Source of the DNA: Ammoniphilus oxalaticus
Lineage (GTDB): Bacteria > Bacillota > Bacilli > Aneurinibacillales > RAOX-1
Length of the DNA: 43,524 nt
Direction: 5' to 3'
Assembly: GCF_003609605.1 (NCBI RefSeq)
Contig: NZ_MCHY01000003.1
Location: 1-43,524 of the forward strand
Shown here: positions 1-15,011 of the stretch, piece by piece
How positions within the stretch are numbered: position 1 is the first letter of the stretch
Layout: the number at the start of each line of letters is the position of its first letter
Notes under the pieces: generated by a model
What the model was told of the DNA's origin: nothing
Databases searched by the model: none
Seen by the model: the letters and a program-made list of their open reading frames with translations, nothing else
Translations under genes and position numbers: made by a program

Positions 1-1489
1 AATTCAGGTTATAGAAGAAGGGGTTAAAGGGACCAATGTAGAAGATTTTCAAACAGAATTTGAGGCCTATTGGAGACAGCAGGACGGCATTGAGGAAATT
101 TATAGTTTTATTAGCGAAAGTAATGATGACGTGCGTGAATTAAATCTTTGGGTGTTTTTTCACGAAAAACGCACTACAACTATCGCTGCGGAACCAAAGT
201 TCAATATGCCAGATTTAGCGCGCAGTTTCTTTCATATGGATATGAAGAGTGCCTATCGATCACGTTGCATCTATCTTCCATTAAAAAAGGAAACACAGCT
301 TATTCCGTCTACTTTAGACTTAAGTGAGATAAAGAACTTAAGAGGGAATATTCTTTCCAATTTATCACCTTCTAACCAGGAGAGGTTAAGAAAGATCTTT
401 AAAAGGAAACAAAGATTGGTACCATTCCAAGAATTTATTATTATAGGTTTGCCTCTTTCTAACGGCAGACTTGCTTTATTTGGGATACGTTTTTGGATAC
501 GTGAAGTAACGCATATGAAAAATCGAAAAAACAAGGTCATCCCTACTATTCGTTTACATCCACTCGTTATGTCTCCTGCAACGATGACAGCTCACCCACT
601 GAGTGTTAAGCGGTTTCATCCGCAATTTCAATTAAATCGGACAGGAGGTAATGCCGAGTTGATAAACAAACATGCTGTTGTTATCGGAGTTGGTTCTATA
701 GGGAGTGAAGTAGCAACAGGACTAGCCAAACTTGGTCTTGCAAAGTTAACTTTTGTTGATCCGGATGTCCTTGATATAAATAACATCCATCGTCATTTCC
801 TTGGAGTTAACCATCTATATGTTGCAAGTGAAAACGGTCCTTTAAATAGATTTAAAGTGTTCGCAATGAAAGACGAATTGCAGAAAAAATATCCGATGCT
901 CGAGGTCGACTCGATCTGTAAGGAGTTTACTGAGGTAGTAAACCAGGATTTAATAAATTGGTCAGAGGTAGACCTAGTTGTTGTTGCGATCGGGAGTCCA
1001 AATGAGGAAATGTATATTAACCGCTTCATGCATCAGCTCGAAATTCCAATTCCTGTGATTTATACGTGGGTGGAACCCATCGGGATAGGCGGACATGCAC
1101 TTGTTACACTAAATGGAACAAAACAGGGGTGCTATCAATGTCTCTTTATGCCTGTTGGTGAAGAGCCGATATCGAATCGAGCAGCCTTCGCAAAACCTTT
1201 TCAGACATTCGCTAAGAGTATCACAGGGTGTGGAAGTGCTTTCACACCTTATAACTTCCTTGATAGCCAGAAAACGGCTCTATTGGCTGTTGAGGAATCG
1301 GCCCGAGTTTTACTAAATAAGGAAACGGATAATCCCCTTTGTTCATGGAAAGGTGACGCAAATGACTTCCTAGCTGTCGGGTTTGAACTAAATCCACGTT
1401 ACAGTTTTACCCACGAAAGGCTACATGAAATGCGATTGCTGTATAAGGATCCACAGTGTCCTATCTGCAGTGGTGGGAAGCAGGCTTGA
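1..1489 (+). CDS. cap2: Cap2, E1 part and end of E2 part (CBASS E2-E1 fusion; gene continues from 43187)
   Basis: Cap2 is the ubiquitin-transfer-like enzyme of type II CBASS that conjugates the C-terminus of the CD-NTase to a target and so primes it. The frame is open from position 2 with no start needed, because codon one is completed by the last two bases of the window. In joined numbering this part holds the end of the E2 region, a linker, and a ThiF/E1 adenylation domain. The nucleotide-binding motif GVGSIG lies at about residues 342-347 and is followed by an acidic loop (VDPDVLDINN). The candidate catalytic cysteine is C523 in SITGCGSAFTPYNFLDSQK. CYQC and CPIC pairs look like a zinc site. 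It overlaps the start of the Cap3 gene. The GTG at 131 (V157) is inside the protein and is not the start. Confidence 0.93.
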   Translation, partial: IQVIEEGVKGTNVEDFQTEFEAYWRQQDGIEEIYSFISESNDDVRELNLWVFFHEKRTTTIAAEPKFNMPDLARSFFHMDMKSAYRSRCIYLPLKKETQLIPSTLDLSEIKNLRGNILSNLSPSNQERLRKIFKRKQRLVPFQEFIIIGLPLSNGRLALFGIRFWIREVTHMKNRKNKVIPTIRLHPLVMSPATMTAHPLSVKRFHPQFQLNRTGGNAELINKHAVVIGVGSIGSEVATGLAKLGLAKLTFVDPDVLDINNIHRHFLGVNHLYVASENGPLNRFKVFAMKDELQKKYPMLEVDSICKEFTEVVNQDLINWSEVDLVVVAIGSPNEEMYINRFMHQLEIPIPVIYTWVEPIGIGGHALVTLNGTKQGCYQCLFMPVGEEPISNRAAFAKPFQTFAKSITGCGSAFTPYNFLDSQKTALLAVEESARVLLNKETDNPLCSWKGDANDFLAVGFELNPRYSFTHERLHEMRLLYKDPQCPICSGGKQA

Positions 1490-1962
1490 GTTTGAATGGA
1501 CAAACGTTCTTATTGCCTAGTGGTAAAAAACTGAAGTTAAGAGAACCTGCAATTGAAAAAATGATAAAGTATCGTCAACTTTCTTCAAATGATAATGAAG
1601 CTGGTGGCATTTTAATTGGGCGTATTTTAATTGAAAGCTCTGATTACATTATCGATGATATTACAGTACCCATGAAGAATGACATTTGCAGACGAACGAG
1701 ATTTATCCGCAGTTCAAAGGAGCATCAAGAATATTTTAATGAGAAATGGGAAGAGAGTGAGGGACGTTGTTTTTACTTAGGAGAATGGCATACCCATCCT
1801 GAAGATATTCCGTATCCGTCATTTATTGACTTTAATGACTGGGAACGAATTGTACATCAAGGCCATGAATCAAACGATATGTTTTTTATTATTGTAGGTA
1901 TCAAAAAAATTCACGTTTGGCATAAGAGAGCAAATAGCAAACAGTCAACGTTATTATCTTAA
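1456..1962 (+). CDS. cap3: Cap3, JAB/JAMM-family metalloprotease of type II CBASS
   Basis: Cap3 is a deubiquitinase-like peptidase that cleaves Cap2-made CD-NTase conjugates. The complete JAMM zinc signature is visible: the upstream glutamate in NEAGGILIGR and EWHTHPEDIPYPSFIDFNDW, which fits H-x-H-x7-S-x2-D exactly. At 168 residues or less it is the usual single-domain size. The start is uncertain. GTG at 1456 has AAGGA six bases upstream and overlaps cap2 by 34 bases. TTG at 1486 would overlap the cap2 stop as TTGA, and TTG at 1492 sits closer to the conserved region. The tight overlap supports translational coupling with cap2. Confidence 0.9.
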   Translation: MSYLQWWEAGLSLNGQTFLLPSGKKLKLREPAIEKMIKYRQLSSNDNEAGGILIGRILIESSDYIIDDITVPMKNDICRRTRFIRSSKEHQEYFNEKWEESEGRCFYLGEWHTHPEDIPYPSFIDFNDWERIVHQGHESNDMFFIIVGIKKIHVWHKRANSKQSTLLS

Positions 1963-1988
1963 AATATTTGAAGGGAAGATGAGATAAA

Positions 1989-3092
1989 ATGTCACGTTAT
2001 ACATCTGCTGCTGATAAGTTCGTGTTATGGGCAAATTCAGGGGGGATTTGTGCTTTCCGTGGTTGTAATGAAAAACTTTTATACCAAGTAGATGGGATTA
2101 ATGTCAACCTATCAAACGCAGCTCATATTATAGGTCATAGTAGCAAGGGACCAAGGGCAGAATATAAAGCGGAATACAAGATCACTGAATTTAACGTTGA
2201 TAATGAGCCCAATCTAATGCTTACCTGTTATGATCACCATAAAATTATTGATGATAGTCGTATAAGGGGAAAGTACCCTCCCGAATTACTCTTTGAAATG
2301 AAAAAGGAGCACGAAGAATGGGTTCAAAGAAGGGTGGAAACGAATTCAAAATCTATCGCCTTAATACATAAGACGAAGGGCGAGCCGCTGGATGAAATCA
2401 TTCTGAGTGAGGAGTTGAACAACCTTCTGATTGCAAATATCCAATATCAGGAGGAGTTAATGGACTTCACTGATGAAGGATGGCTAGAGGCGAAGAAAAA
2501 GAACAAGGAATTATATGCAAAGTTTAAAGAAACTGCTAGACACTGGCCGGGAGCAAAAATTGAGATGTTTCCTCTATCACATATTCCGCTATTGATTCAT
2601 ATAGGCTCTCTTATTACTGACACAAATCCTGTTACAATTTATCAATATGACCGAATGAGTATGAAGTGGGTTTTTGATTCACCTGAAGCCCCACATGTTG
2701 AAGATCTAGGTCTTACAGTCAATAGAAATGAATGCTCGTCAAATCAACTGGTTGTTACTATTGGTCTTAGTGGGATTGTTCACACTAGGGACGTTGAAGC
2801 CGTTATCCCCCCCAAAAAATATGATTCAATGGAAATAAAAATTAATAATCCACGACCAGATCGGGTTCTATATAGGGAACATGTGAGCTCTATTCTTTCA
2901 TTATTCAGGGAAGAAATCTATGACATGATTACTAAAAATGGTTATAGTGAAGTTCACTTATTTTACGCTGGTCCCGCCGGTCTTGCTGTTGAAATAGGTA
3001 GATGTATAAATAAAAGTATGTGGCCAGATGTTTATATCTATAATTATGACAATCGTAAAAACCCAAAATATCAGATGGCCATAACAATATAG
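1989..3092 (+). CDS. cap5: Cap5, HNH endonuclease-SAVED effector of CBASS
   Basis: Cap5 effectors bind the cyclic oligonucleotide made by the CD-NTase through a SAVED domain and then degrade DNA with an HNH nuclease domain, which causes abortive infection. The N-terminal 125 residues carry HNH hallmarks: a cysteine pair in GGICAFRGCNEKL, the AAHIIGHS strand-histidine, and NEPNLMLTCYDHHKIID. The C-terminal 230 residues resemble SAVED, with conserved-looking segments such as HLFYAGPAGLAVEIGR near the end. ATG at 1989 follows a purine-rich stretch containing GAAGGGAAG. It lies 26 bp after cap3, so it is in the same operon. It is the last gene of the operon; in many CBASS loci the effector gene comes first. 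Confidence 0.9.
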   Translation: MSRYTSAADKFVLWANSGGICAFRGCNEKLLYQVDGINVNLSNAAHIIGHSSKGPRAEYKAEYKITEFNVDNEPNLMLTCYDHHKIIDDSRIRGKYPPELLFEMKKEHEEWVQRRVETNSKSIALIHKTKGEPLDEIILSEELNNLLIANIQYQEELMDFTDEGWLEAKKKNKELYAKFKETARHWPGAKIEMFPLSHIPLLIHIGSLITDTNPVTIYQYDRMSMKWVFDSPEAPHVEDLGLTVNRNECSSNQLVVTIGLSGIVHTRDVEAVIPPKKYDSMEIKINNPRPDRVLYREHVSSILSLFREEIYDMITKNGYSEVHLFYAGPAGLAVEIGRCINKSMWPDVYIYNYDNRKNPKYQMAITI

Positions 3093-7738: not shown

Positions 7739-8041
7739 AAGAAAACGAAATTCTATTTTCCTTTTTTGTTCGACTCACAGATTATTAATTTGCGTAAGGA
7801 CAGTAATCAGCTTGTCCATCTTCCCCGCATTTTTTTAGTAACCTCAAGCCTTGATCAGGCCGCCAATCAGGGCTGAATCCTATGTAAGATTTAAGATACT
7901 AACGCAGTTTTTTCTAAAAACACGAAATCAAATGACAATTTTGTCACGCTACGCTAACAAGACCATGCTTACTCAGCTAATTAAATGTGTTTATAAGAAA
8001 CCGAGAAAAGGTTCACGCTACTGAGACTACCCTATACACAA

Positions 8042-8077
8042 ACGTAAACAAATACGTATGCGTTTACGTTTACGTAT
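8042..8077. repeat. Hexamer array A, putative partition/RHH operator
   Basis: Six hexamers lie in one 6-bp phase: ACGTAA, ACAAAT, ACGTAT, GCGTTT, ACGTTT, ACGTAT. The array also contains a 10-bp inverted repeat (CAAATACGTA at 8049-8058, TACGTATTTG at 8071-8080). Similar arrays recur at five other places on the plasmid. Confidence 0.7.
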
Positions 8078-8303
8078 TTGTTCTTACATGATTTGTATAG
8101 CATGATTTAGACTGTCTCACTCTTGAACCATAATTATGGATTATCGACCACGATCTCGATCTCTTTACCTTAAGCTATAATCTCACTTTTTATCTTTAAC
8201 GCTAATTAGTACTATATGCCACAAAAGAGTGTATCTAATAACTAAGTAGAGATGGTCTTATGTCAATTTAAATCTCCTTATCTTTCAAATAGTTATTATA
8301 TAT

Positions 8304-8345
8304 ACGTAAACGTAGTTGTATACAGTTACACTTACGTATACATGG
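8304..8345. repeat. Hexamer array B, upstream of the zinc-ribbon gene
   Basis: Seven in-phase hexamers: ACGTAA, ACGTAG, TTGTAT, ACAGTT, ACACTT, ACGTAT, ACATGG. The outer copies form TATACGTA/TACGTATA dyads. Its place 77 bp before ATG 8422 suggests an operator for that gene. Confidence 0.65.
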
Positions 8346-8421
8346 CCGATTAGTTTAATTTGTATGTATGCCATTCAAACTTTCTGTCAATATTGGTTAA
8401 TAAGAAAGGTGGGATGTTTAA

Positions 8422-8559
8422 ATGAATTGTATAGATTGCGGAAAAAATGGAGCAACCAAGCAAACTAAATATCGATGCCTAAAGTGCGAAAAATTGTACA
8501 CGGCAATATCCCCAAATAATCCTAAGAACAAGTCGTTTATCAAGCGGATCTTTGGCTAA
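8422..8559 (+). CDS. Zinc-ribbon miniprotein, 45 residues
   Basis: The ORF reads MNCIDCGKNGATKQTKYRC and continues to KCEKLY, giving a C-x2-C ... C-x2-C zinc ribbon. It ends in a basic tail (KNKSFIKRIFG). ATG at 8422 has AAAGGTGGG eight bases upstream. The gene is too short for routine gene callers. Its last four bases overlap the convergent RHH gene at 8556. A DNA- or RNA-binding role, perhaps in plasmid control given the operator-like array just upstream, is inference. Confidence 0.65.
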   Translation: MNCIDCGKNGATKQTKYRCLKCEKLYTAISPNNPKNKSFIKRIFG

Positions 8560-8834
8560 TAAATAAGCTTTCCCTCGTCATTGATCGGCACTATACGGAA
8601 TGGATCTTCTTTCGTAACGCCATGCCTATCTTGAATCCAATTAATAAAATCAGGATGATTTAAAAAATAAGAAAGTACTTCATTAACGAGTTCTGATTCC
8701 GTTGTGTTACAAGACCGAGCCAATCGATTCAATTTTTGTTTATCATCAGATGATACATAAGATTGAACACGCTCTTTTTTATCTGAACGCGTATTTCGGA
8801 CTGGCGCCCCCTGCCCTACTCCTCTAACCTTCAC
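8556..8834 (-). CDS. Ribbon-helix-helix (CopG/Arc-like) DNA-binding protein
   Basis: A basic N-terminal arm (residues 1-23) precedes an RHH-like core: strand RVQSYVSSDDKQKLNRLA, then a helix with TESELVNEVLSYFLN. At 92 residues it fits a small plasmid regulator. ATG at 8834 follows CGGAGTGA. The gene lies downstream of the parA operon on the same strand, separated from it by array C, which has a terminator-like stem. It may be a copy-number or transfer repressor, or a second centromere-binding protein. The target site is unknown; the hexamer arrays are the obvious candidate. Confidence 0.75.
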   Translation of the reverse strand: MKVRGVGQGAPVRNTRSDKKERVQSYVSSDDKQKLNRLARSCNTTESELVNEVLSYFLNHPDFINWIQDRHGVTKEDPFRIVPINDEGKLIY

Positions 8835-8994
8835 ATAATCACTCCGTTTCTCATTTATCCTCTAGTCTCAGAGTATGAGCCACTAAAAGTTTGAGACTCT
8901 CAACGTCTTAGATGTTAAAAGTTTATGCATCTGAAAGTCCCGATAGAACGACGTGAAACTTACTTACGAACCCTATGTGCTTGGAAAAAAAGAA

Positions 8995-9031
8995 AACACT
9001 TACATATACGTTTACGTATATGTAAGTGTTT
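8995..9031. repeat. Hexamer array C forming a perfect 16-bp inverted repeat (operator and terminator-like)
   Basis: AACACTTACATATACG and its exact reverse complement flank TTTA (8995-9030). In the hexamer phase it reads ACACTT, ACATAT, ACGTTT, ACGTAT, ATGTAA, GTGTTT. On the minus strand the stem is followed by a T-rich run (TTTCTTTTTTTCC), so it may also end the parA operon transcript. Confidence 0.75.
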
Positions 9032-9066
9032 GTGTTGTTGTTTTCAAATATTTTATAGAAGGGAGC

Positions 9067-9315
9067 TTATATCTTAAAATACTGACGTAATGCTTCATTA
9101 AAAATCCTTGTTTTTTCTCCACGTTCATTTTGAGCCTCTCGTGTAATAAGCTCAATGATTTCATTTTCAATCCACACCGTTTGGCGTGAATAGCGATCCT
9201 CAAATTTTTCCCTTTTCTTTCCTCTGTTTACGTTTGCATGAACAGGTTCAATTAGTTGCTCGTGAGCAGACGATCGGACCTTATTCTTTATTTTGTCCTT
9301 AAAGTTATTAGACAC
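9067..9315 (-). CDS. RHH centromere-binding protein, ParB-analogue of the partition operon
   Basis: The gene follows parA and overlaps its end by 8 bases, the usual place for the small ParB/ParG/omega-type partner. The N-terminal half is basic and disordered-looking (NRGKKREKF). The C-terminal half has an RHH pattern: strand RQTVWIENEIIELI, then a helix ending TRIFNEALRQYFKI. At 82 residues it matches ParG or omega rather than classical ParB. Such proteins bind short direct repeats in their own promoter and the centromere, and stimulate ParA ATPase. The hexamer arrays at 10086-10115 and elsewhere are the predicted sites. Confidence 0.8.
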   Translation of the reverse strand: MSNNFKDKIKNKVRSSAHEQLIEPVHANVNRGKKREKFEDRYSRQTVWIENEIIELITREAQNERGEKTRIFNEALRQYFKI

Positions 9316-10066
9316 GATTAATCAACTCCTTTACGACATCATGAAAAGGTTCTACAGCCTGCCTCAACTCTGAGTTATTAAAAAAACCGTTAATAGGTAA
9401 TCGGCCTGTTGCAGCTTTTCTAGAAATAATAGTTTCGAAAACTAACTCTGGATAATCCTCTTCGACCAACTCAATAAAAGCCTTGGAATCCGTTCGACGT
9501 GAATCGATCATCGATCGAAGGATTCCCGCCACTTTTAATTTCGGATTAACCTTTCTTTGAGCATGGCCTACAGTCTCTAGGAACCTTTCTAATGCTGAAT
9601 AACAAAACCTTGAAGCCTCAAATAAAACCACAACAGCATCAGACGCACACAATGCGTTAATTGTTTGGTCACCCAAGGCGGGAGGTGTATCAATCAAAAT
9701 ATAATCATAGTCATCTTTCACTTTTTCAAGTGTCTTATCTAAAACTAAGGATCGATTATCTCCGTATTCTGAATACAGCCATCGCGGAAATGTAGCTAAA
9801 AGATCTTCTGCCGTGAGTATATGAAGAGTGTCATCAATTCGATGTATGTAGCCTCGCGCATCTTGTTCCTTCATAGCCTCTAGTATTGTTTGACCATGAA
9901 AATCATAAATGTCTTGTTGGGTAAGAAGTTCGGTTAAGTTTCCTTGACTATCAAGATCAACGGCAAGGACCCGATGTTCCCGACTTAATAAATAAGATAA
10001 GGTTCCAGCGGTGGTGGTTTTTGCCGAACCGCCTTTTTGTATTCCGCAGGTTATAACGACTGCCAT
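9308..10066 (-). CDS. parA: ParA partition ATPase
   Basis: A 252-residue Walker-type ParA. The deviant Walker A motif is KGGSAKTTT at about residues 11-19, with the signature lysine present and alanine where glycine is usual. Walker A' is VLAVDLDSQGNLT (A-box), and Walker B is YDYILIDTPPALGD. There is no N-terminal HTH, so it is a small type Ib-like ParA and the RHH partner probably does the autoregulation. ATG at 10066 follows GGGAGGTGATACTAA. The promoter region carries array D. ParA uses the nucleoid to place plasmid copies into both daughter cells. Confidence 0.92.
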   Translation of the reverse strand: MAVVITCGIQKGGSAKTTTAGTLSYLLSREHRVLAVDLDSQGNLTELLTQQDIYDFHGQTILEAMKEQDARGYIHRIDDTLHILTAEDLLATFPRWLYSEYGDNRSLVLDKTLEKVKDDYDYILIDTPPALGDQTINALCASDAVVVLFEASRFCYSALERFLETVGHAQRKVNPKLKVAGILRSMIDSRRTDSKAFIELVEEDYPELVFETIISRKAATGRLPINGFFNNSELRQAVEPFHDVVKELINRV

Positions 10067-10085
10067 TTAGTATCACCTCCCACTT

Positions 10086-10115
10086 ACGTATACGTATATA
10101 ACAACGTGTACGTAT
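10086..10115 (-). promoter_or_regulatory. Hexamer array D in the parA promoter (predicted centromere/operator)
   Basis: Five in-phase hexamers: ACGTAT, ACGTAT, ATAACA, ACGTGT, ACGTAT. A minus-strand -35 box TTGATA lies at 10122-10127 (plus-strand TATCAA), so the array covers the spacer, -10 region and leader, about 20-50 bases before the parA ATG. Binding here would repress parA. Confidence 0.65.
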
Positions 10116-10215
10116 TTATATTATCAATGTTTTTGATTGGTGTATAGTAACCTTTTAAAATTAAATAGTTCTTCAAACACTCGCACTCGCGACAGAACAC
10201 ATCATAAAACCAAAT

Positions 10216-10251
10216 ACGTAAATGTAAATGTATATGTTTACGTATACGTGC
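10216..10251. repeat. Hexamer array E upstream of parA
   Basis: Six in-phase hexamers: ACGTAA, ATGTAA, ATGTAT, ATGTTT, ACGTAT, ACGTGC. Array D is about 100 bp away, so the two may be bound together as one partition complex. Confidence 0.65.
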
Positions 10252-13594: not shown

Positions 13595-13858
13595 TTACTT
13601 GTAAATGCCGCCGCGGGAATCAATGGTGCGTATGTACACGATTTTTTCATGGTGGTCGATTTCAAAAAGGATGCGGTAGGCCCCCACTCGCAGTCGGTAG
13701 AGTCCAGCATAGCCTTTCATCGATCGAATATCGCCGATCGGGGGTACTTGAAGAAGGCCTCTTAATCCTGATGCGATGCGTTCTTGAATGGCTTTTTCTT
13801 GCTTGGCTAAAAATTTAATGCTGTTTCTATGGTAAATCAACTGATAATCCGAACTCAC
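13595..13858 (-). CDS. RelE/ParE-family toxin
   Basis: An 87-residue protein with the RelE fold pattern: YHRNSIKFLAKQ at the start, a central LRGLLQVPPIGDIRSMKGYAGLYRLRVGAYRI core, and EKIVYIRTIDSRGGIYK at the end. RelE toxins cut mRNA on the ribosome, and ParE relatives poison gyrase; the LRVGAYRI-type core with a final basic tail fits RelE better. The start is a GTG at 13858, inside the antitoxin gene (32-base overlap), which couples translation. On a plasmid this is an addiction module. Confidence 0.85.
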   Translation of the reverse strand: MSSDYQLIYHRNSIKFLAKQEKAIQERIASGLRGLLQVPPIGDIRSMKGYAGLYRLRVGAYRILFEIDHHEKIVYIRTIDSRGGIYK

Positions 13859-14078
13859 GTTTAGCGTCCTTTCCCGTCACAAAACCTTCCTCGCTGTCTA
13901 ATTGCCGAAGTTCCTCCTCTGTAAGTGGGGCATCGTCAGGTTCCATCTGATCGATTGCAGCCCAATTGGGGCGTGTGTGACGAAGCGCAAGGAATGTTAA
14001 ATAATCATAGGCTGATTTCTTGGCTTCCTCTGGCAGCGCGTGAACCAACTTCATGAGCTCTTCATTGCTAATTGCCAT
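13827..14078 (-). CDS. Antitoxin partner of the RelE-type toxin
   Basis: An acidic 83-residue protein upstream of, and overlapping, the toxin gene, the standard antitoxin-first order. The N-terminal half (SNEELMKLVHALPEEAKKSAYDYLTFLALRH) is helical and resembles small addiction-module proteins such as DUF2281. The acidic C-terminal half (DDAPLTEEELRQLDSEEGF) is probably the flexible toxin-neutralising arm. ATG at 14078 is preceded by AGGAAGGATG. It lacks an evident classical HTH, so autoregulation could be through the complex. Confidence 0.78.
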   Translation of the reverse strand: MAISNEELMKLVHALPEEAKKSAYDYLTFLALRHTRPNWAAIDQMEPDDAPLTEEELRQLDSEEGFVTGKDAKREFGLSVDLP

Positions 14079-14155: not shown

Positions 14156-14797
14156 TTATGAATAGGTCACCGGAACGACATCCAATTTTAACGTTTGCGC
14201 AACGACATACCTTCGATAGCCGTCTGTGAGAACACCATTCTTTGCGTTAATCGTGATGGGTTTGTCCAGGTGGCCATGCTTCTTTACAAACTCGATCGCC
14301 TGATGTGTTTTTTGACGATTGGGCACGGTCTGCAAAAACTCTTCTGGAATGGTAATCGCGTCCAACGGGATCAGGTCTTGCGTTCCTTTCGGTTGGCGTT
14401 GTGTCTTTTCTTCCGTTGCCGCGGCAACTTGTTCCTCCGCTTCTTCAATCTCTTTTTGAGACGAGGGTTCTTTCTCGGCTGACTTTTTCTTTCTATCGGC
14501 GACGATTTCAATTTGATAACAGACGACGCCGATCTCTCCCCAACATTCATCGACTGGGATGTCGAGGGTCGGCTCGCCTTGAATAAACAATCGATTTTCT
14601 TGCAAATTCTGTTCGTCGATGCCCGCTTTGGTTAACTGCTTCTGGTTCACAAAGACGGTATAGGTGATCGGGCTGCTTTTTGGCAATCCTTTCGGCGCGG
14701 AAGGTGAACCGCTTTCCTCCATATCAAAAGGGAAGATGTTGCCGATGGATCGCAACGAACTAATCGATTTACCTGTTAGGGTCATTTTGTGCGCCAT
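14156..14797 (-). CDS. ParB/sulfiredoxin-fold protein
   Basis: The C-terminal 75 residues fit the ParB N-domain/sulfiredoxin fold: IPLDAITIPEEF, then KPITINAKNGVLTDGYRRYVVAQTLKLDVVPVTY, where DGYRR corresponds to the family G-x-R-R turn. A coiled, Glu/Gln/Ala-rich linker joins it to an N-terminal domain of about 110 residues that is not recognised. There is no HTH or dimerisation domain of a true ParB, and parA already has an RHH partner, so it is probably not the segregation protein. Members of this fold can be CTPases, nucleases or DNA-binding. ATG at 14797 follows GGGAGAGGATG. Confidence 0.68.
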   Translation of the reverse strand: MAHKMTLTGKSISSLRSIGNIFPFDMEESGSPSAPKGLPKSSPITYTVFVNQKQLTKAGIDEQNLQENRLFIQGEPTLDIPVDECWGEIGVVCYQIEIVADRKKKSAEKEPSSQKEIEEAEEQVAAATEEKTQRQPKGTQDLIPLDAITIPEEFLQTVPNRQKTHQAIEFVKKHGHLDKPITINAKNGVLTDGYRRYVVAQTLKLDVVPVTYS

Positions 14798-14975
14798 GTT
14801 TCATCCTCTCCCTTCTGGTTTATTTTAACATCACTTTCTAAACCTCTCCATGCCATTTAAAACGAAATAAAGCGAGAAACATAAAGAGATCCAACTAGGT
14901 CCCTCTTTTTACTTACAGCGTTCTACACATTGGAGTTGTCACTTAAATAGGAACAAGTTGTTACTCCACACGGTT

Positions 14976-15011
14976 ACACATACATCTACGTCCACGTTTA
15001 CGATTACGTAG
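14976..15011. repeat. Hexamer array F upstream of the transfer operon
   Basis: Six in-phase hexamers: ACACAT, ACATCT, ACGTCC, ACGTTT, ACGATT, ACGTAG. It is more degenerate than D or E and lies 120 bp before the predicted transfer promoter, which may link partition proteins to transfer control. Confidence 0.55.

Follow-up and report, generated by a model that had tools for sequence, protein, structure and literature searches.

Hexamer arrays as candidate partition and operator sites of a ParA-linked, probable ribbon-helix-helix protein in Ammoniphilus oxalaticus and related Bacillales plasmids

This study concerns six arrays of a degenerate, palindromic six-base unit contained in a stretch of 43,524 bp from Ammoniphilus oxalaticus (termed the window), which is the entire contig C3 of a genome of 3.32 Mb distributed over 13 contigs. 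The plasmid-like character of this contig is reflected in its gene content, which includes parA together with genes for a VirD4-like coupling protein, a pLS20_p028-type transfer protein and a VirB4-like ATPase. Encoded directly after parA is a small protein with a likely ribbon-helix-helix (RHH) fold, here named RHH1 and, as judged from sequence comparison, it is very probably this protein that binds the arrays, which would serve as operators of parA and, jointly, as the centromere parS. Since related plasmids of several genera bear the arrays in the same places, sites for a partition protein appear as their most likely function. Our best reading assigns the system to type Ib of ParA/RHH partition, with a mode of action like that of delta/omega, but the repeat would be palindromic and 6 bp long in place of the asymmetric 7-bp unit found there.

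The arrays and their six-base register

The arrays and the genes central to their interpretation are listed below. Scores refer either to ACGT over seven units (maximum 28) or to a softer measure counting AYRT over five units (maximum 20), for which thresholds of 16 or 17 were used.

8036..8081, no strand: array 1, about seven units in a dyad-like layout (ACACAA ACGTAA ... ACGTTT ... TTTGT), five-unit score 17.5/20; units read from 8042 are ACGTAA ACAAAT ACGTAT GCGTTT ACGTTT ACGTAT
8304..8343, no strand: array 2, six to seven units and the weakest (21/28 over seven units, 16/20 over five); ACGTAA ACGTAG TTGTAT ACAGTT ACACTT ACGTAT; a zinc-ribbon-like open reading frame at 8422 begins 78 bp past it
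8556..8834, minus strand: RHH2, RHH-like by eye, located between arrays
8996..9031, no strand: array 3, on the 3' side of the RHH1 stop; ACACTT ACATAT ACGTTT ACGTAT ATGTAA GTGTTT
9067..9315, minus strand: RHH1, 82 residues, parA-linked, the proposed array-binding ParB-like protein
9308..10066, minus strand: parA, 252 residues, a short Walker-type ATPase whose gene overlaps the start of RHH1
10086..10115, no strand: array 4, five units of which the middle one is broken, immediately preceding the ribosome site of parA; ACGTAT ACGTAT ATAACA ACGTGT ACGTAT, the broken unit corresponding to TTATAT on the minus strand
10216..10251, no strand: array 5, six units, the first of them 150 bp upstream of parA; ACGTAA ATGTAA ATGTAT ATGTTT ACGTAT ACGTGC
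14970..15011, no strand: array 6, seven units, between an open reading frame (14156-14797, minus strand) and a helix-turn-helix (HTH) gene (15264, plus strand), 5-6 kb from the par genes; ACGGTT ACACAT ACATCT ACGTCC ACGTTT ACGATT ACGTAG

All six in-register arrays that had been claimed in a sequence-only reading of this DNA are present on direct inspection. The hexamer register assigned to them stands, whereas the consensus ACGTWT fits less well, as the units are degenerate, with an exact ACGT in just 2-4 units of each seven-unit window (five windows). They are better described by AYRT followed by two mostly A/T bases (AYRT-WW).

The register itself far exceeds chance. In the seven-unit scan of the window, five places reach a score of at least 20, compared to a mean of 0.01 and a maximum of 1 in 100 dinucleotide shuffles; array 4 (10086) is absent from these five and shows in the five-unit scan. 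The same seven-unit scan at periods of 5 and 7-11 returns no place, and at 12, a multiple of 6, it returns one. The phasing is equally evident in the distances between ACGT tetramers, where 30 of 48 pairs located 4-48 bp apart are separated by multiples of 6, compared to a mean of 3.4 and at most 12 in 600 shuffles, and the in-phase density expected by the sequence-only reading is thus borne out against shuffled sequence. When 15 further palindromic tetramers of the window were counted likewise, the shares at multiples of 6 were highest for GGCC (3/7) and TGCA (6/16). On the level of the whole genome, five-unit matches with up to three mismatches define six separate places, four on the window contig and two on contig C1, and a backwards control pattern yields three matches per strand. 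A comparable phasing is found in 16 related loci, where 297 of 396 close ACGT pairs fall on multiples of 6, compared to 30 of 94 in 30 control loci.

Recurrence beside related parA-RHH1 pairs

A tblastn search with RHH1 identified ten Bacillales plasmids from Paenibacillus, Brevibacillus, Alicyclobacillus, Peribacillus, Terribacillus and Halobacillus, all with less than 60% identity, and further relatives were located on genome contigs (nine loci) and viral contigs (two loci), with identical or near-identical plasmids among them. Duplicates (L012, L013, L023, L024, L025, L054 and L096) were removed before counting. Array positions were counted, at a cut-off of at least 16/20, for the window and 17 other loci that carry both parA and RHH1, 18 in total. 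Outside this set remained L015 (which carries a truncated RHH1, a ParA fragment and an array), L022, L026/L106 and L028.

At a score of at least 17/20, the related loci contain up to nine arrays each, with no more than one in 20 shuffles per locus and no arrays at periods of 5 and 7-11; L003, L018 and L022 lack an array at this threshold. At the cut-off of 16, 17 of the 18 loci contain at least one array, a score that shuffled flanks reach in 4 of 1800 cases. By position, 14 of the 18 loci have an array upstream of parA at a distance of no more than 200 bp, 12 have one between -8 and +200 of the RHH1 stop and five have one within the RHH1 gene. The arrays thus recur in matching positions beside related parA-RHH1 pairs of several genera. 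This clustering extends to whole plasmids: near par are found all six arrays of the P. brasilensis plasmid (within 5.6 kb), five of six of the P. urinalis plasmid (within 1.6 kb) and eight of twelve of the T. goriensis plasmid (between 70 and 80 kb), the remaining four of the latter being located away from par.

A logo of the unit compiled from 66 arrays of the 18 scanned loci, with L007 and L008 left out, reads A94 C78/T19 G83/A16 T93 followed by two mostly A/T bases. These spacers are mostly AA, AT or TT and rarely TA, with AA being commoner in the left half of the arrays (53 vs 27) and TT in the right half (42 vs 27), and the arrays therefore tend to face a centre. The palindromy of whole arrays is no greater than with reshuffled units (median p 0.61).

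Across 398 genomes of the class, relatives of RHH1 were found in 31 (E 1e-5), and arrays of five units with up to two mismatches in 19 places of 17 genomes. At five of these places, an RHH1 relative is found no more than about 350 bp away (G195, G222, G242, G339 and, by a weaker match, G293:C5), with the arrays of G242 and G339 adjoining remnants that contain in-frame stops; the window's own place (14982) lies 5.7 kb from RHH1.

RHH1, ParA and the competing explanations

The proposed assignment to type Ib was compared with the properties of both proteins. ParA matches the AAA_31 profile (2.7e-36) from residue 4 of its 252 residues and is thus a small ParA that lacks an N-terminal DNA-binding domain, with matches to PrgP (1.4e-27) and to a RepA-type model remaining below their cut-offs. 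Repeat arrays flanking the par genes and reaching their promoter, a further feature of type Ib, are likewise found (14/18 upstream, 12/18 downstream). RHH1 consists of a basic N-terminal tail, a linker and a C-terminal RHH-like part that includes the strand RQTVWIEN, and its best-conserved stretch is F-E-x-x-[YH]-x-R-x-T-x-[WY]-[IV]-E-N plus the following G-E-K-T-R. Its predicted structure (mean pLDDT 74) contains two helices (51-61 and 67-80) after an extended stretch. Searches of the window protein against Pfam and PHROG and of its model with Foldseek gave no match. A comparison of 6 chains by VIA listed four entries, all of them RHH proteins (PutA, Arc) with low Z values of 2.5-3.3, while omega, ParG and the ParB of pB171 were missing from this list; a profile search of PDB sequences returned just 2q2k (E 0.5) and 2kel (E 1.4), with omega and ParG not among them. 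Among 11 family members, one matches Pfam RHH_3 (0.0028) and two match an NCBIfam RelB-like profile (best 0.0029). Collectively, sequence and model make an RHH fold likely for RHH1, whose family appears poorly named by Pfam and NCBIfam.

The relation of the arrays to transcription was inspected in ten regions upstream of parA, five of which contain TATAAT or TATACT at -37 to -40 from the start. In L001, L002, L004 and L005, this box begins 8-9 bp past a five-unit array, which therefore covers the -35 region, and in L010 it follows a shorter run scoring 15/20. The broken unit of array 4 in the window reads TGTTATATA on the parA strand and contains TG-n-TATATA, which may constitute an extended -10-like site. 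A promoter-like -35 element (TTTACA, 10228-10223, minus strand) is located inside array 5, in a region where promoter-like sites occur at chance level (10 vs 9.2). The proposed role as centromere and parA operator is thus supported by comparison, through the recurring positions and the -10 boxes of four relatives, while in the window itself the nearest array has no good -35/-10 pair beside it, which weighs against this role.

In the mechanism that we consider most likely, dimers of RHH1 would occupy neighbouring units of a contiguous AYRT-WW array, with a stoichiometry of one dimer for either 6 or 12 bp. When bound to the array or arrays upstream of parA, the protein would block the promoter and keep the levels of ParA and RHH1 low, whereas RHH1 loaded on all arrays together would form the partition complex, in which the N-terminal tails might stimulate ParA and so promote the movement of plasmid copies over the nucleoid. 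Array 6 could be a further copy of parS. It had been placed upstream of a transfer promoter, for which we find little ground, as it ends 121 bp before the sole plus-strand promoter-like site between 14780 and 15400, where such sites occur at chance level. A role in the control of transfer is not sustained by the plasmids of P. brasilensis, P. urinalis and T. goriensis either, whose conjugation gene clusters contain no array, and the suggested control of copy number, judged by position only, finds no array tied to a rep gene.

The arrays might instead be purely operators, at which RHH1 or another regulator represses promoters, with the centromere located elsewhere or absent. Such a role would account for arrays that stop just before the parA -10 boxes of relatives and for RHH relatives that lack a nearby ParA match and yet retain one array upstream of their own gene. 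However, many arrays are located past the RHH1 stop or far from par, with up to 12 per plasmid, and this number exceeds what operators need, which weakens the explanation. In delta/omega, as described in the cited text, one set of arrays fills both roles (PMC4498918). We regard a restriction to operators as improbable.

Still less probable is a reading of the arrays by RHH2 or a host factor rather than by RHH1. The sequence-only reading had left the choice between both RHH proteins, and RHH2 is located between arrays in the window, but a search of the fetched stretches of relatives with RHH2 gave no match at E 1e-5, and four plasmid stretches that do encode RHH2 relatives contain no array scoring at least 16 (best 15.5). 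These four belong to 57 plasmids with RHH2 relatives, 37 of which are predicted to be conjugative, and are not listed as carriers of RHH1. RHH2 was on the basis of this comparison rejected as array binder. Other genomes of the class contain isolated three-unit ACGT runs, most of them not close to an RHH1 relative, which might speak for such a reader, but the arrays track the parA-linked RHH1 over several genera, and it is towards this protein that the comparison points as the one that would bind them. As a marker, three-unit runs proved not to be diagnostic, with ACGTWW x3 found in 31/398 genomes and an RHH1 relative adjoining only two places.

The least probable explanation views the arrays as self-folding RNA hairpins acting as terminators or attenuators, for which the folding of arrays 1 (z -5.5 on one strand and -5.1 on the other) and 3 and a perfect stem in L010 might be quoted, but arrays 5 (10216) and 6 (14970) fold no better than shuffles (21 and 20 of 200 as good), entire arrays are no more palindromic than those with reshuffled units and a hairpin has no need of a fixed 6-bp register. 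Weak as a general explanation, a hairpin is a likely additional function of the array that follows RHH1. Array 3 coincides with a 17-bp hairpin (8994-9031, -21.9 kcal/mol, z -8.2) with a T-run on the minus strand, which is the strand of parA, and it is therefore probably also the terminator of the parA-RHH1 operon, with a matching arrangement seen by eye after RHH1 in L010, where the stem is followed by TTTTTT at 8144.

Another layer is found in the arrays within the RHH1 gene of L006, L007, L008, L016 and L021, which are located in the region of the linker with their units in one codon phase and, since 6 bp equal two codons, encode (N/D/Y)-V dipeptide repeats. Shuffling of synonymous codons gave p values below 0.05 (uncorrected) in two of 19 genes (L006, 0.021; L021, 0.028), but such shuffles cannot separate selection on DNA from selection on protein, because the dipeptide repeat itself forces AYGT. 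It is tentatively conceivable that these features together define a family of Bacillales partition systems whose centromere code, palindromic and 6 bp long, has parS, the parA operator covering the -35, the terminator stem after the RHH1 gene and, in some plasmids, linker coding layered on each other.

Several observations weigh against RHH1 as reader of the arrays in partition and parA control. The 18 loci are partly dependent, with L007 and L008 sharing 91-98% and L009 and L017 87-90% identity over their longest aligned stretches. No array is found at a score of at least 16 in L018 (best near the genes 14.5), in the weaker relatives L022 and L028 or in L026/L106, which encodes an RHH1 relative on a 5-kb contig with no ParA match, and most loci with weaker RHH1 matches in the 398 genomes lack an array at 17. 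The near-identical Peribacillus loci L007 and L008 lack an array upstream of parA, and their code is shifted, with AYRT separated by AA, CG or AG. The N-terminal lysine that is invariant in a first set of 11 proteins is not so in a second set of 11. The other 13 of the 19 places with five-unit arrays show no RHH1 relative in the fetched stretches, and a backwards control pattern outnumbers the five-unit array in the 398 genomes. Since this control is commoner, the hexamer pattern alone proves nothing, and what is informative is its link to RHH1 and its position. Even the control loci, with 30 of 94 pairs at multiples of 6, exceed the naive share of 8/45. Finally, 11 viral stretches with exact four-unit arrays contain no RHH1 relative (E up to 1); these arrays are mostly uniform tandem repeats of the (ACGTTT)n type, some of them in identical sequences or at contig ends.

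Related repeats were encountered in other contexts. L101 (G222) and L102 (G195) encode an intact RHH relative of 164 residues (FEKRYRRVTTYLEN) on large contigs, where the fetched 8-10 kb show no ParA match and one hexamer array precedes the start of the relative by about 25-35 bp; in L103 (G293) the frame of the RHH relative is broken and the array is still present upstream of the reading frame. The 164-residue proteins are possible users of the same hexamer code outside partition. Contig C1 of A. oxalaticus contains two hexamer-phased inverted repeats 1.1 kb apart (G000:C1:94302-94341 and 95394-95421, corresponding to L100 4303-4342 and 5395-5422), one of which precedes by about 110 bp two genes that by eye resemble a Doc/Fic-type toxin with its antitoxin; the fetched 9 kb show no RHH1 relative, and no T-run follows the first repeat. 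Distant ParA and RHH relatives in L035, L036, L038 and L041 are accompanied, about 1 kb from the pair, by 21-bp repeats of the GTCGCCAGACGACA type instead of ACGT hexamers, possibly another centromere code. Different hexamers (GGTACC/GGGATC/GGTAGC) repeat in L037 (1730-2275) within an open frame of 313 residues that bears an RHH match. On the 10.7-kb viral contig L115, three ACGTTA/ACGTAT arrays (3559, 5991 and 9630) have TA spacers, unlike the arrays of parA-RHH1 loci, and one precedes by about 450 bp a ParA-like gene, itself located after an HTH-like gene, with no RHH1 relative present. Elsewhere in the window, at 131-3092, a ThiF-like gene and, further along, a SAVED-domain gene resemble part of an anti-phage signalling system, and at 13595-14078 a small gene overlapped by a downstream ParE-toxin-like gene forms with it a probable toxin-antitoxin pair.

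Relation to known systems

The system most closely resembles delta/omega of pSM19035 (inc18), which, as described in the cited texts, shares a short ParA, a small ParB with an RHH fold (likely in RHH1) and several parS arrays of contiguous short repeats overlapping the par promoters. There, the promoters of delta, omega and copS are overlapped by arrays of 7-10 adjoining heptads, and the ATPase is fully stimulated only from four contiguous repeats upwards (PMC9499535, PMC4498918). In contrast to the 7-bp non-palindromic WATCACW and the separately transcribed genes described for delta/omega (PMC5016525), the window has a 6-bp unit with palindromic core and overlapping parA and RHH1 genes. Scans for an ACGT or AYRT core at period 7 give no array, WATCACW itself not having been searched. 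In ParF/ParG/parH of TP228, the flexible N-terminal tail of the RHH partner is described to stimulate the ATPase, and an upstream region serves as centromere and operator (PMC7308502). By description, with the box sequence not compared, its degenerate tetramer boxes with AT-rich spacers are alike (PMC7308502), whereas the system of the window has contiguous AYRT-WW hexamers and further arrays after and, in relatives, inside the RHH1 gene. The claim of a code distinct from the 7-bp repeats of omega holds for spacing and palindromic core, but the reading of 6-bp repeats by an RHH protein is not unprecedented, as RelB of E. coli recognises four of them (PMC2812701). RelB differs in that its target relO is described as a toxin-antitoxin operator of two 12-bp half-sites with the core [A/T]TGT[A/C]A, with neither long arrays nor a part in partition in that account. 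The ParB of pB171 par2 (parC1/parC2) is also named as an RHH ParB (PMC4498918).

The system of the window would work like omega and is not filed as omega. In pB171, 6-bp direct repeats, here not compared, flank parAB on both sides. The met box bound by MetJ is a palindromic AGACGTCT with ACGT at its centre, spaced by 8 bp, chromosomal and dependent on S-adenosylmethionine, and the K-x-T of the MetJ strand resembles the R-x-T of RHH1. A literature search for such arrays gave one unrelated paper, although a paper using a single word for the array could escape it, and among the titles and abstract openings listed by further searches none describes this hexamer-array ParA-RHH1 family.

If our interpretation is correct, the described loci would constitute a Bacillales plasmid partition family in which protein and sites are predicted together, whose centromeres would be readable from sequence and whose incompatibility would be open to test. 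For RHH proteins, the contiguous palindromic 6-bp repeat raises the structural question of how dimers pack on a spacing that is tighter than the 7 bp of omega. The arrays within genes and at the terminator would, on the same condition, be clear examples of a single DNA word with several layers of information.

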